From: Laspinema palackyanum D2c
Lineage (GTDB): Bacteria; Cyanobacteriota; Cyanobacteriia; Cyanobacteriales; Laspinemataceae
Direction: 5' to 3'
DNA length: 64,000 nucleotides
Assembly: GCF_025370875.1 (NCBI RefSeq)
Contig: NZ_JAMXFD010000001.1
Coordinates: 162,182-226,181, forward strand
In this document: positions 47,905 to 51,989 of the stretch, in pieces
Numbering within the stretch: position 1 is the first letter of the stretch
How the letters are laid out: the number at the start of each line of letters is the position of its first letter
Notes under the pieces: model-generated
Seen by the model: only the letters and a program-made list of their open reading frames with translations
Told to the model about the DNA's origin: nothing
Databases searched by the model: none
Program-made: the position numbers and the translations under genes

Positions 47905-48074
47905 AGGGGAGGATTGGGGGGATGGGGGAGAATTGGGAGATTGGGGAGAATTGGGGGATGGGGGGGACTTACAAGAGTAGGTTTTTTACGTTCATGGTAA
48001 TTTACTTCAAATTAATTGCACTTCCGGTCCCCTCCCCTGTGTCTTGGTCCGGGTTAGGGTGGGGTTCCCTCCCC

Positions 48075-49751
48075 TTAAAATGTAACCCGATCGCGCAAGC
48101 GTTCTGATAGGGTGGGACCAATTCCTGAGACCCGTTGCAAATCCTCCACGGACGTGAACGGTTGCTCTTGCCTGGTGGCAATAATCCGAGAGGCTAAAGC
48201 GGGACCAATTCCGGGTAACGCTTCTAACTCCTGCTGAGTGGCTCGATTCACATTGATTCGCGCTTCGGGAGATAATGCGGCAACTGGAGTGGACTCGCCA
48301 CATTGCTGAATCTGCTGTTGGATTTTGGCCTCAATGTGGGTGGGTAATCCTAAACGAGCGGTGCTATAAAGGCGTTCAAACTCTCGTTTAAAATGGGCAG
48401 CGACGAGGGGAGAGTCAATGACCAAGAGGGTTTCATCATTACGAGAATTAGCGGCGGCGGACCAGTTATGAGACCCGGTGATCACGATGCGATCATCTAA
48501 GAGGGCAAATTTATGATGGAGGCGATCGCCCGGAGGTAATTGCGGAACGCCTACCGTATCCAGGGGCGTAGACCAAGGTTGGTTGGCCTGATCATACTGA
48601 CAATTTTGATTGGGTAAAGCCACCCCCATCATGTCCAACCCTTCGCTATAACTGCGGTAGGCAAAACTGGGATCAATCAGAGCACGGACCTGTACCCCAG
48701 TGCGATGACGAGCATAAAGGGTATCGCTCAACTGCTGTTTTGAGAAGACAAACAGGGCCAGGTCCACGGATTGAGTGGCGAGATTCAATGTATTGGCGAT
48801 CGCCCCATTGACACTCTGCGCCCAAGGAACTCGCGCCCCCGTCGGCGCAAATTGCACCCCCACGGAACTGGCCCCCAAATTCACCGACTGCTTCGGACGG
48901 AATGGTTTTTGCACTCCAAACAAACTATCGGGATCACCCCCGGGGCCATCTCCCCACATCAGGTTAAACTCTTGTTGGAATAAACCCGCCAATGCCGGAC
49001 TGTCAATTTTGAGTAAATTATTGGGATTACCCAGACTGGTCTGAGAGAGAAAATCTCCGTGGATGTCACTGGTGGTAAAATTGGCCGAAGTGACGAGCAC
49101 CCGGCGACCATCGGCGATCGCAAATTTGTGGTGCATCAACCCGCTGCCTTTAGAACCATCTGCCGTATCGTCAATTAAAGGCACTCCGGCATTTTTTAAA
49201 ATGATTAAAGCATCCCCCTGGGCGATTTCCTCTGGACTGAGGACACCATCCTGGTTGCGATCGATCAGGTGACGCCATTCTTCATAACGAGCTTTGCTGC
49301 GTTCATCCAAACCGACGACTTGCTGCGGCGTCAACTCACTGAGGGCTTGGTTATAGGTATTTTCCAAAATCACCCGGACCCTGACACCGGATTGATGCTT
49401 AAGGGCGATCGCAATCGCAATCTTAGGCAACTGCAACTCCTGAACGGCCACATCCACCGTGGATGTCGCGCCATTGATAGTATCCACAATCAACTGTTCC
49501 AAATCATCCCCCGGTCGCGTGATGCCTCGGTAAGGCTCTGGGTACTCACGGACCGGATTCTGGTTCAAATAAACCTCCACAAAGGGATCTTGGGGTAGGG
49601 GAGGGAGTCGATGCAGGGTGGGCTGAATTTCCTTACACCCGCTTCCGAGCAGGCCCAGGGTCACCATCAGCAGAGGCCGGAGAAAGGGCCAGAATTTAGG
49701 GGATTGTGGGGTTTTTCGTAGGATCAGCAGTAGGAGCATAAGACCCGACAA
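48075..49751 (-). CDS. Phospholipase D-like lipoprotein with EF-hand-like loop and ComEA HhH domain
   Basis: The 558-aa protein has an N-terminal hydrophobic leader with a lipobox-like LGSGC (about residue 39). Two HKD half-sites follow: MHHKFAIADGRRVLVTSANFT and LHHKFALLDDRIVITGSHNW. Between the first helix set and the first HKD is DRNQDGVLSPEE, an EF-hand-like calcium loop. The C-terminal ~65 residues (INVNRATQQELEALPGIGPALASRIIATRQ...DLQRVSGIGPTLSERL) are a ComEA-type helix-hairpin-helix DNA-binding domain. The whole suggests an exported, DNA-binding nuclease or phosphodiesterase. The long N-terminus leaves the exact start open. Confidence 0.85.
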   Translation of the reverse strand: MSGLMLLLLILRKTPQSPKFWPFLRPLLMVTLGLLGSGCKEIQPTLHRLPPLPQDPFVEVYLNQNPVREYPEPYRGITRPGDDLEQLIVDTINGATSTVDVAVQELQLPKIAIAIALKHQSGVRVRVILENTYNQALSELTPQQVVGLDERSKARYEEWRHLIDRNQDGVLSPEEIAQGDALIILKNAGVPLIDDTADGSKGSGLMHHKFAIADGRRVLVTSANFTTSDIHGDFLSQTSLGNPNNLLKIDSPALAGLFQQEFNLMWGDGPGGDPDSLFGVQKPFRPKQSVNLGASSVGVQFAPTGARVPWAQSVNGAIANTLNLATQSVDLALFVFSKQQLSDTLYARHRTGVQVRALIDPSFAYRSYSEGLDMMGVALPNQNCQYDQANQPWSTPLDTVGVPQLPPGDRLHHKFALLDDRIVITGSHNWSAAANSRNDETLLVIDSPLVAAHFKREFERLYSTARLGLPTHIEAKIQQQIQQCGESTPVAALSPEARINVNRATQQELEALPGIGPALASRIIATRQEQPFTSVEDLQRVSGIGPTLSERLRDRVTF

Positions 49752-50204
49752 AAGAGAATGGGGAGATGGGGGAAGGCAGATAGAAGACTTTAGGAAAAAA
49801 GTATCGGGAAAGAGTAGGGAGTGTTAACGCATGGTAGAATTGCGATCTGTTAAAAAAGATTTGTCCATCGTCTTCGCCCTCCTTGTCCGGCATCATAGCA
49901 TTCAGGATAAGTTATTCTACCCTTTCGAGGGAAGGATCCATGTCAACAAAATTTTAAGGGTTCAATTCAGCAGTTGAACCGGCAGGGATTGGGTTGACTT
50001 AACGGATGTCTGGTGATGGCATGGAAATATGGCCGAAATTAGGTTTCGGCTCGGGGATTAGGGTAACATCGGATCTATTGCTGACTGAGGACGTTCGTGC
50101 AACGGAAAACAGTGGGCATAGACCAGAGCCTATGGGTTGAGGATAAGCTCTCATCACGAGTTGAAGTTGGAGGTTTGGGCCAGACAAACCAACACCAGTG
50201 TTTT
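49752..50204. other. Intergenic gap between divergent genes
   Basis: It holds the upstream regions of the phospholipase-like gene (left) and the zinc-finger protein (right). Frames extending from 50097 have no supporting start features. No RNA gene or strong hairpin is seen. Confidence 0.4.
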
Positions 50205-50606
50205 ATGCCGAGAAGAAAAAAAATCTTTCCATGCGGTCACAAGGGTTATGGTCAAGTTTGTCACCGTTGCGCCCAAGATCAAGAGGCCCAGGAGCAAGCG
50301 GTACGTTCGCTGGCGGAAAAACGACAGCAAAAAATGGAATGGGAAGCCACTTTTGACAATGACCCCATTGATTTGAGAGAGTTACCCGATTATGTGGTTC
50401 ACAAAGCCCGGAATATTATCGAGGGACTCAGTGAACGGCGTAATTATCGAGAGTTTGGCGGGAAGCGCCTCCGTCACAATCGCTGTATTATCAGCATCCC
50501 GGTTACCCGAAACTATCGGATGATTTGCCGAGAGGAGGGGAATATTACGATTCCAGAATCTGTATTGTCACATGAAGATTACAATGTGTGCAAGCCGGGG
50601 AGTTAA
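50205..50606 (+). CDS. Zinc-ribbon protein with RelE/ParE-like C-terminal half
   Basis: From the ATG at 50205 the 133-aa protein begins MPRRKKIFPCGHKGYGQVCHRC, a CxH...CxxC zinc-binding knuckle common in a cyanobacterial family (recently grouped as DUF7682, from memory). A charged helix (AQEQAVRSLAEKRQQKMEWE) follows. The rest, LPDYVVHKARNIIEGLSERRNYREFGGKRLRHNRCIISIPVTRNYRMICREEGN...SVLSHEDYNVC, resembles the core of RelE/ParE ribonuclease-type toxins (strand-rich, RxRIxxxxxNxYRLIC). No antitoxin gene is adjacent. The role is unknown; RNA or ribosome binding is a guess. Confidence 0.65.
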   Translation: MPRRKKIFPCGHKGYGQVCHRCAQDQEAQEQAVRSLAEKRQQKMEWEATFDNDPIDLRELPDYVVHKARNIIEGLSERRNYREFGGKRLRHNRCIISIPVTRNYRMICREEGNITIPESVLSHEDYNVCKPGS

Positions 50607-50810: not shown

Positions 50811-51989
50811 ATGCAAATCTATTTAGATTACAGCGCAACTACACCGACTCGACCCGAGGCGATCTCTGCTATGCAAGACGCCCTCACCCAGGATTGGGGT
50901 AATCCTTCCAGCATCCATGAATGGGGCCAAAGAGCTGCAACGGTGGTGGAAAAGGCTCGAATGCAGGTCTGTAATCTCATCGATGCACCAGCGGATTCCC
51001 TGATTTTTACTGCTGGGGGAACGGAAGCGGACAACCTGGCGATTATGGGAGTAACTCGTCACTATCAGACCCCACAACATCTGATTATTTCTGAGGTGGA
51101 ACATTCTGCAATCAGCAAAACGGTGGAGTTGCTAGAGCAGTGGGGATGGGGGGTGACGCGGTTGCCGGTTGATCGCCTAGGAAGGGTGAATCCCGAGGAC
51201 CTGAAATCTGCTCTGCGCTCCGATACGGTGTTGGTGTCGGTGATTTATGGACAGAGTGAAGTGGGAACGGTGCAACCGATTCAAGAATTGGGGGCGATCG
51301 CTCGCGCGGCAGGGGTGTTATTTCATGTGGATGGGGTACAGGTTGTCGGGCGATTGCCGGTGAATGTGCAAGAATTGCCGGTGGATCTGCTCTCCCTCTC
51401 CAGTCATAAAATTTATGGCCCTCAAGGGGCAGGGGCGCTCTACGTTCGGGACGGGTTGGAACTGGTTCCTTTGCTGACGGGAGGGGGACAAGAATCAAAT
51501 CGGCGATCGGGGACTCAGGCAGTGCCTGCGATCGCCGGATTTGGGATGGCGGCAGAATTAGCGATGGAAGAAATGCCAACAGAGACTGCGAGATTAATTC
51601 AATTGCGCGATCGCCTCTTCGAGTTATTAGCGGATACCCCGGAACTGATCCCCACAGGCGATCGGCTGCATCGTTTACCCCACCATGTCAGTTTCTGTCT
51701 GCGGGAGGATGCTCATAGTCGAGGCAGTCAACCCATCTCCGGCAGGGCGATCGTCCGTCAAATGAACCTCGCCGGAATCGCCATCAGTTCCGGATCCGCC
51801 TGTAGTAGCGGCAAACTCAACCCCAGTCCCGTCCTCTTAGCAATGGGATACAGTCCCACCGAAGCCACCGCTGCTGTGCGCCTCACCCTCGGACGACATA
51901 CCACCGCAGCCGATATCGACTGGACTGCAATGGTCCTCAAGCAAATTTTAGCCAGACTGATGCCCAAATTAGCCCTTGCTAGACTTTAA
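50811..51989 (+). CDS. Cysteine desulfurase (NifS/IscS family)
   Basis: The 392-aa PLP enzyme takes sulfur from cysteine for Fe-S clusters and thiolation. Markers are YLDYSATTPTRPEAI at the start, TAGGTEADNLAIMG, SEVEHSAI (PLP-stacking His), HVDGVQVVG (PLP Asp), SSHKIYGPQGAGAL (PLP Lys), and ISSGSACSSGKLNPSPVLLAMG with the active-site Cys on the long loop. It is a group I enzyme and the ATG start is directly at the conserved YLDYSAT. It stands alone; no IscU or SufE gene is close. Confidence 0.93.
   Translation: MQIYLDYSATTPTRPEAISAMQDALTQDWGNPSSIHEWGQRAATVVEKARMQVCNLIDAPADSLIFTAGGTEADNLAIMGVTRHYQTPQHLIISEVEHSAISKTVELLEQWGWGVTRLPVDRLGRVNPEDLKSALRSDTVLVSVIYGQSEVGTVQPIQELGAIARAAGVLFHVDGVQVVGRLPVNVQELPVDLLSLSSHKIYGPQGAGALYVRDGLELVPLLTGGGQESNRRSGTQAVPAIAGFGMAAELAMEEMPTETARLIQLRDRLFELLADTPELIPTGDRLHRLPHHVSFCLREDAHSRGSQPISGRAIVRQMNLAGIAISSGSACSSGKLNPSPVLLAMGYSPTEATAAVRLTLGRHTTAADIDWTAMVLKQILARLMPKLALARL

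Follow-up and report, generated by a model that had tools for sequence, protein, structure and literature searches.

What does a cyanobacterium do with a protein that joins a lipoprotein-like leader, two phospholipase D (PLD) sites, an EF-hand-like loop and a ComEA-type helix-hairpin-helix (HhH) tail in one chain? This question is raised by a 64,000-nucleotide stretch of the Laspinema palackyanum D2c genome (contig NZ_JAMXFD010000001.1, positions 162,182 to 226,181; hereafter the window), which holds a complete open reading frame (ORF) for such a protein at 48075..49751 on the minus strand. The ORF encodes 558 aa from a TTG or 554 aa from an in-frame ATG at 49739, four codons further on, which is the likelier start. 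During natural transformation one strand of the DNA is broken down, and the other then enters the cell. Which nuclease degrades that strand in cyanobacteria is not settled in the accessible portions of the literature, where ComEC from this phylum is mostly without the Lactamase_B domain. We infer, with a fair degree of confidence, that the protein of the window is a DNA-binding nuclease, anchored to a membrane and facing the periplasm, that carries a Ca2+-binding insert and works with ComEC in transformation, most likely as a member of the ComA/ComEA family (slr0197 of Synechocystis). Being widespread, with its catalytic residues intact, tracking ComEC and often bearing a ComEA-type grip, this PLD-fold protein is a direct candidate for the nuclease.

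Architecture and catalytic sites

From the N to the C terminus the protein consists of a leader, a first PLD half with an EF-hand insert, a second PLD half, a linker and a double HhH, and this architecture is almost certain. The preliminary description of the locus had read a leader with LGSGC, a pair of HKD sites, an EF-type loop and a ComEA-type HhH in a single chain, and each of these elements was confirmed. Both PLD halves match PLDc_2 of Pfam (E=1.6e-40), the first at 48954..49490 (G000:C1:211135-211671, 58.5 bits) and the second at 48369..48797 (G000:C1:210550-210978, 85.6 bits), both on the minus strand as are all features of the gene given below. HKD site 1, HHKFAIAD (49110..49133, residues 207-214), comprises H207/K209/D214 with S222/N224, and site 2, HHKFALLD (48495..48518, residues 412-419), comprises H412/K414/D419 with S427/N429; the chain therefore has the two HxK(x)4D sites, each followed by an N, of the two-HKD PLD superfamily. 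To see how general these sites are, we compared 111 distinct family sequences, namely the window's own and 110 others, after a partial sequence (L018), a second record of the window gene (L019) and duplicates had been dropped; this sample leans to high scorers and hence to HhH bearers. H, K, D and N of both sites, and S427 of the second, are identical in 111/111. The invariance of all HKD catalytic residues argues for catalysis. The predicted activity is quite likely that of a nuclease.

The leader (49635..49751) is hydrophobic and ends in the lipobox LLGSGC, with a predicted lipidated Cys39 at 49635-49637. In a pattern search, ...LLMVTLGLLGSGC39 matches a PROSITE-style lipobox pattern, in keeping with the lipoprotein-like reading proposed earlier. 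Across the family, 65/111 leaders fit this pattern and 101/111 hold a hydrophobic 15-residue stretch; as judged from the sequences, anchoring looks general and the type of anchor variable. The nearest named relatives belong to Laspinema, Oscillatoria and Phormidium (88-94% identity in the best segment).

Comparison with named PLD families gave scores under the model cut-offs throughout: DrmC of the DISARM system (NCBIfam NF038319) reached 2.9e-18 and 66.3 bits against a cut-off of 133, the NucT equivalog (NF010492) 1.1e-17 and 64.2 bits against 297, and cardiolipin synthase 0.18. The AlphaFold2 model has a mean pLDDT of 92.1. Its top structural matches (Foldseek, VIA-align 2) are a phospholipase D, 7e0m, at Z 32.9, and PLD3/PLD4, at Z 30.4-31.5 with 318-333 residues aligned; the titles of the PLD3/PLD4 entries in the Protein Data Bank name complexes with single-stranded DNA (ssDNA) and exonuclease action. 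The modelled fold by itself would not decide between a DNA and a lipid substrate. PLD3/PLD4, although alike in fold, share just 16-19% identity with the family protein, and we know of no HhH or EF loop in them. The nucleases NucT, Nuc and Zucchini have the HKD chemistry in common with the family protein; they presumably carry one HKD per chain, whereas the family protein has two in one chain together with the EF insert and the HhH. NucT of Helicobacter pylori is, in the accessible part of its description, a PLD nuclease of the periplasm that is associated with the membrane and affects transformation modestly, and it is tied to purine salvage as well (PMC5714352). NucT offers a precedent for an enzyme of this kind.

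Distribution of the family and association with ComEC

The family was found in 340 of 388 Cyanophyceae genomes, that of the window included (E<=1e-30, at most three candidates scored per genome; genes split in broken assemblies may escape this search). What had been noted as one odd chain is thus the member of a phylum-wide family. In the same 388 genomes, ComEC was sought as PF03772. Both genes are present in 322 genomes and neither in 34, while 18 have the family gene only and 14 ComEC only. In group f17, which we take from genome size to be picocyanobacteria, the corresponding numbers are 35 with both, 26 with neither, 0 with the family gene only and 2 with ComEC only; outside f17 they are 287, 8, 18 and 12 (P = 3.7e-5, Fisher's exact test, shared ancestry ignored). 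Many of the genomes with the family gene only are less than 90% complete (13/18), as are few of those with ComEC only (5/14), and some of the exceptions are therefore real.

As a control, KaiA was sought in 43 genomes. Five near-complete genomes outside f17 that lack both the family gene and ComEC all keep KaiA. Two of these five, G354 and G384, share their genus with G348, which has both genes; the other three are G014, G305 and G331. A search for DprA in 24 genomes gave strong matches in the window's own genome and in G014, G305 and G331, and a weak match or none in G354, in G384 and in each of six small f17 genomes. The co-loss with ComEC is real; it does not take the whole pathway each time.

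Competence genes, whose presence in the genome the preliminary description had left to be checked, do occur there as ComEC and DprA. Three roles had been suggested for the protein, in DNA uptake, on biofilm DNA or on phage DNA, and uptake is the best of them, given that the family tracks ComEC across the 388 genomes. The earlier picture of an exported enzyme that holds and cuts DNA, perhaps for uptake, stands in so far as this is an exported, anchored PLD-fold protein with a DNA-binding-type tail. A role of the family in competence is probable.

ComEC without a recognizable nuclease domain

In thirty cyanobacterial ComECs taken from other genomes than the window's own, the Pfam domains Competence and DUF4131 were found in 30/30 and Lactamase_B in 0/30 at E<=0.01, whereas an Enterococcus ComEC used as control matched Lactamase_B at 7e-23. 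Six long ComECs were aligned; they possess the C-terminal region without the HxHxDH motif, and from its sequence this region looks like a decayed Lactamase_B. The motif was likewise not found in 20 further cyanobacterial ComECs. In four f28 genomes (L213, L214, L215 and L216) the ComEC frames are 512-550 aa long and stop before the C-terminal region, and the 26 other frames measure 642-857 aa. DUF4131-Competence is given as the main ComEC profile in Cyanobacteria in the accessible part of a published survey, where Lactamase_B of Bacillus subtilis ComEC is called a putative nuclease and pneumococcus is said to use EndA (PMC6299819).

The HhH tail

The ComEA-type double HhH lies at 48081..48263 (residues 497-557) and matches HHH_3 of Pfam with E=4.8e-17 and 62.2 bits, over the curated cut-off of 27, so that the tail had been correctly recognized in the preliminary description. 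TIGR00426, the model of the ComEA HhH region (cut-off 53.1), gives 48.5 bits for the protein alone and 53.1 with its neighbours in frame. The whole-length comE model TIGR01259 stays below its cut-off (64.6 versus 152.35 bits), and the protein is therefore classed as working like ComEA and is not filed as ComEA. Like ComEA (TIGR01259, TIGR00426), it has an export leader and, at its C terminus, an HHH_3 double HhH; in contrast, the rest is a two-HKD PLD enzyme, and the N-terminal region of ComEA is lacking.

The tail is optional: as called by a model built from 18 positives, 59 of the 111 sequences have it and 52 do not (L188 has just part of the tail). Absence of the HhH in most orthologues had been named earlier as a point that would tell against the proposal, and in this sample the HhH is not lacking from most sequences, though the family can do without it. 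A maximum-likelihood tree was built from 104 of the 111 rows, with seven near-copies dropped and with the EF loop and the tail left out; on it, HhH presence and absence needs at least 16 changes. Groups f6, f31, f17, f38 and f28 each make up one side of a branch and f39, f41, f2 and f5 need two changes; the gene is thus mostly vertically inherited.

A stand-alone ComEA was sought in the window's own genome and rejected. HHH_3 has three matches there at E<=0.001, a Tex-like protein, the family protein and a pentapeptide-repeat membrane protein, and TIGR00426 matches the family protein and the Tex-like protein and no other. The pentapeptide-repeat membrane protein has a leader and an HhH and may be a DNA binder; proteins of this kind (~720-760 aa, pentapeptide-like repeats, an HHH_3 match) were seen as L051 (C9 of this genome) and L117, and occur in distant cyanobacteria. 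Among 37 genomes, TIGR00426 matched family members, frames of 713-813 aa, small frames of 126-248 aa and one 393-aa frame. Three of the 713-813 aa frames were read (L049, L103 and L104) and all are Tex-like. The small HhH proteins that were read are PsbU-like, leaderless tandem-HhH (~175-240 aa), membrane HhH or, in f38, lipoprotein-like proteins (~123-131 aa). Leaderless tandem-HhH proteins of ~175-210 aa turn up repeatedly in cyanobacteria (L106, L118, L128, L130, L131 and, in a picocyanobacterium, L141). In f38, L121 and L132 are lipoprotein-like frames (123 and 131 aa) that bear a ComEA-like HhH, and the PLD protein there is without HhH; it is possible that these small proteins act as a separate ComEA in HhH-less genomes.

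The EF-hand insert

A helical insert in the first PLD domain (49188..49304, residues 150-188) forms a helix-loop-helix and a next helix in the secondary structure of the model. Its loop, DRNQDGVLSPEE (49227..49262, residues 164-175), is a 12-residue EF-hand loop with ligands at positions 1, 3, 5 and 12 between two helices, and the AlphaFold2 model shows the EF-hand arrangement, with helix 150-163, the loop and helix 173-179. EF-hand_5 of Pfam matches the window protein below its gathering cut-off (E=0.02, 14.8 versus 25.9 bits); matches of Pfam EF-hand models do occur in part of the family, where 56 aligned members gave EF-hand_5 in 26 (best 3e-5) and EF-hand_1 in 12 (best 2e-4) at E<=0.05. 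Shuffling of the window protein produced a slightly stricter loop pattern in 8/20,000 trials.

The loop is canonical in 103/111 members, that is, in 59/59 with HhH and 44/52 without. Eight members deviate: the loop is missing from two Laspinema paralogues and from two sequences each of f9 and f17, and in two more a single residue falls outside the pattern. Residues 141-160, directly before the loop, belong to the more variable portions of the enzyme core (mean majority 0.49), and the EF loop therefore stands out. The preliminary description had seen an EF-hand-like loop and had named lack of conservation in orthologues as a point against its proposal; the loop proved to be both canonical and conserved. 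The loop probably binds Ca2+, more likely to shape the insert than to switch activity; gating of activity by Ca2+ is possible but unsupported. One of the Laspinema paralogues was seen at L016 6001-7326 and the other as L015; the paralogue is 62% identical, has neither EF loop nor HhH, and was found in these two Laspinema genomes and not in the window's own.

Relation to cyanobacterial ComA/ComEA

DNA-binding and endonuclease domains had already been predicted in print for slr0197, the ComA/ComEA of Synechocystis, as far as the accessible portions of the reports cited in this section go. Its ORF is at least 844 bp long and a knockout abolishes transfer (PMC10667661), and the comA mutant of Synechocystis is non-transformable (PMC7690835). 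ComA/ComEA is widespread in cyanobacteria and missing from most Prochlorococcus (PMC7690421, PMC10667661, PMC5101192), comA being absent there save in MIT9303/9313 (PMC5101192). ComA has been said to resemble the membrane-anchored Gram-positive form (PMC6567925), and ComEA is counted among the transformation genes of Synechococcus elongatus (PMC7125226). The family matches this ComA in having an anchor, a DNA-binding domain (HhH in 59/111) and an endonuclease-type domain in one chain. It also matches in distribution, which is broad and leaves out small Prochlorococcus-like genomes, if the f17 genomes of 1.6-1.9 Mb are, by their size, taken as Prochlorococcus. From architecture and distribution, it is quite likely that the family is cyanobacterial ComA/ComEA. 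The ComEA self-score quotients calculated here, 2.85-3.36, compare with 2.4-2.9 printed for competent strains (PMC7292380 Table 4, in the part available), which concern other species and another smallest pair.

The PLD fold, the HKD sites and the EF-hand loop are not mentioned in the accessible portions of the ComA accounts. No publication joining ComEA, cyanobacteria, natural competence and phospholipase D was found, although Yura 1999 may already name the nuclease fold, and no PLD-EF-HhH competence protein was found among the publications listed, as judged by titles and abstract openings. The outline is likely that of the known ComA, and the double-HKD PLD, the EF loop, the repeated gain and loss of the HhH and the nuclease-less ComEC partner were not found in the accounts and listings consulted.

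Proposed function and alternative explanations

We propose the following course of events. DNA would enter the periplasm through the pilus secretin, and a lipid or transmembrane anchor would hold the protein at the membrane. The HhH pair, where present, would grip incoming double-stranded DNA in the manner of ComEA; the two HKD halves would together make a single PLD active site for cutting or trimming a DNA strand, and the EF-hand insert in the first half would bind Ca2+, which would keep the insert in shape. ComEC, whose nuclease domain is degenerate or missing in the sampled cyanobacteria, would import the other strand. That the family protein carries out the strand-degrading step is conceivable, if a little doubtful. 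More tentatively still, cyanobacteria may have a different uptake layout, in which the strand-degrading nuclease has moved from ComEC to a Ca2+-loaded two-HKD PLD enzyme, often fused with a ComEA grip and similar in mechanism to PLD3/PLD4. A family protein acting as the transformation nuclease would also explain a 'Gram-positive-like' membrane-anchored ComA in a Gram-negative phylum.

Several observations weigh against a nuclease that works with ComEC in transformation. The closest solved fold is that of phospholipase D 7e0m, in a superfamily that includes lipid enzymes, and a DNA substrate is unproven. The HhH is missing in 52/111 sequences, and a DNA grip is thus not essential to the family. 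Apart from the 18 genomes with the family gene and no ComEC and the 14 with the reverse, which include G169 and G283 (family gene only) and G143, G179, G241, G369 and G370 (ComEC only; weak in G370, 4.3e-4) at 99% completeness, G014, G305 and G331 lack both genes and yet have a strong DprA. All 26 f17 genomes without either gene are also without KaiA, and general genome reduction may therefore explain those losses. No competence gene was recognized beside the family gene in 21 loci and their 14 largest neighbour clusters. Finally, the link to ComA is drawn from architecture and distribution, and an attempt at synteny in G192, with rpiA as the presumed neighbour of slr0197, was uninformative, the two loci being dissimilar.

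Four other explanations were weighed against this one. A scavenging or barrier nuclease, which would digest DNA outside the cell or in the periplasm, as a source of phosphate and nucleotides or within the matrix, and would limit transformation instead of aiding it, would agree with an anchored PLD-fold enzyme with HhH, as such a protein suits general DNA digestion. It would also agree with the Vibrio plasmid homologue described below, in which PLD stands between a leader resembling a signal peptide and an HhH-like tail and of which 0/6 annotated neighbours are named as competence genes, and with the link between NucT and purine salvage (PMC5714352, in part). On the other hand, the presence of the very widespread family gene follows ComEC and both are co-lost in several lineages, and if slr0197 belongs to the family, the non-transformable comA mutant (PMC7690835, in part) shows the opposite of a barrier effect; this explanation is unlikely. 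The view that HKD sites serve as a DNA clamp, with the enzyme part of a DNA receptor no longer turning over, draws on the groove of PLD nucleases, which can hold DNA, and on HhH-less members, which may still need DNA binding. It is hard to reconcile with catalytic residues invariant in 111/111, and we think it improbable.

An envelope phospholipase D or transphosphatidylase acting on lipid, with an HhH serving a non-DNA purpose, is rather improbable as well. Two HKD motifs, a lipid-type membrane anchor and a phospholipase D as the closest solved chain would fit such an enzyme, but the cardiolipin synthase model scores far worse than NucT and DrmC, PLD3/PLD4 are nearly as good a fold match, and neither a ComEA-type tail nor co-occurrence with ComEC is expected of a lipase. 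Least probable is an anti-phage defence nuclease of DrmC type. PADLOC DrmC models do match (best 3e-13), as does that of NCBIfam, and a cysteine desulfurase matching SspA/DndA lies 1.1 kb off with a ParE-like toxin-domain protein between. Against this, the NCBIfam score is about half of its cut-off, no other DISARM component model matched among five neighbours tested, the neighbour matching MzaA is a sigma-70 protein, and the desulfurase belongs to the aminotransferase-V family with a homologue near the gene in 6/21 loci; a near-universal, mostly vertical gene is moreover unlike a defence island.

Gene surroundings and relatives elsewhere

The neighbourhood was examined in 20 genome stretches and the window, using ORFs of at least 100 aa whose 14 largest clusters were named by eye. 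ABC-transporter-like proteins occur in 8/21 loci, NifS-like cysteine desulfurases in 6/21 (close to the gene in 5) and oxidoreductases in 5/21; two clusters of 6 consist of frames antisense to the family gene itself. In the window, a small ORF at 50097-50606 (+) joins a zinc-binding DUF7682 to the ParE-like toxin domain, and the NifS-like desulfurase is encoded at 50811-51989 (+).

Outside cyanobacteria, phage and viral-structure searches gave PLD or HhH matches that are partial or distant, and in a plasmid search Vibrio records covered 69% of the query. The Vibrio plasmid protein WP_152472689.1 (L211:3881-5332) has two PLDc_2 halves like those of the family, with 37.6% identity over residues 83-465. 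It ends in an HHH_3-like tail (8.4e-6, 26.2 bits versus the cut-off of 27). It differs in lacking the EF insert, that part being ~40 residues shorter (31 versus 72 residues, by eye), and its leader, also by eye, is a signal peptide and not a lipobox. The pairing of PLD and HhH therefore also occurs outside cyanobacteria. The Vibrio gene adjoins glycoside hydrolase and heat-shock genes.

Downstream of the window gene, at 47906-47967, lies a short G-rich tandem array of GGGGAGAATTGGGGGATG units, and a G-rich stretch akin to it is found just upstream of the gene, near 49757-49775.
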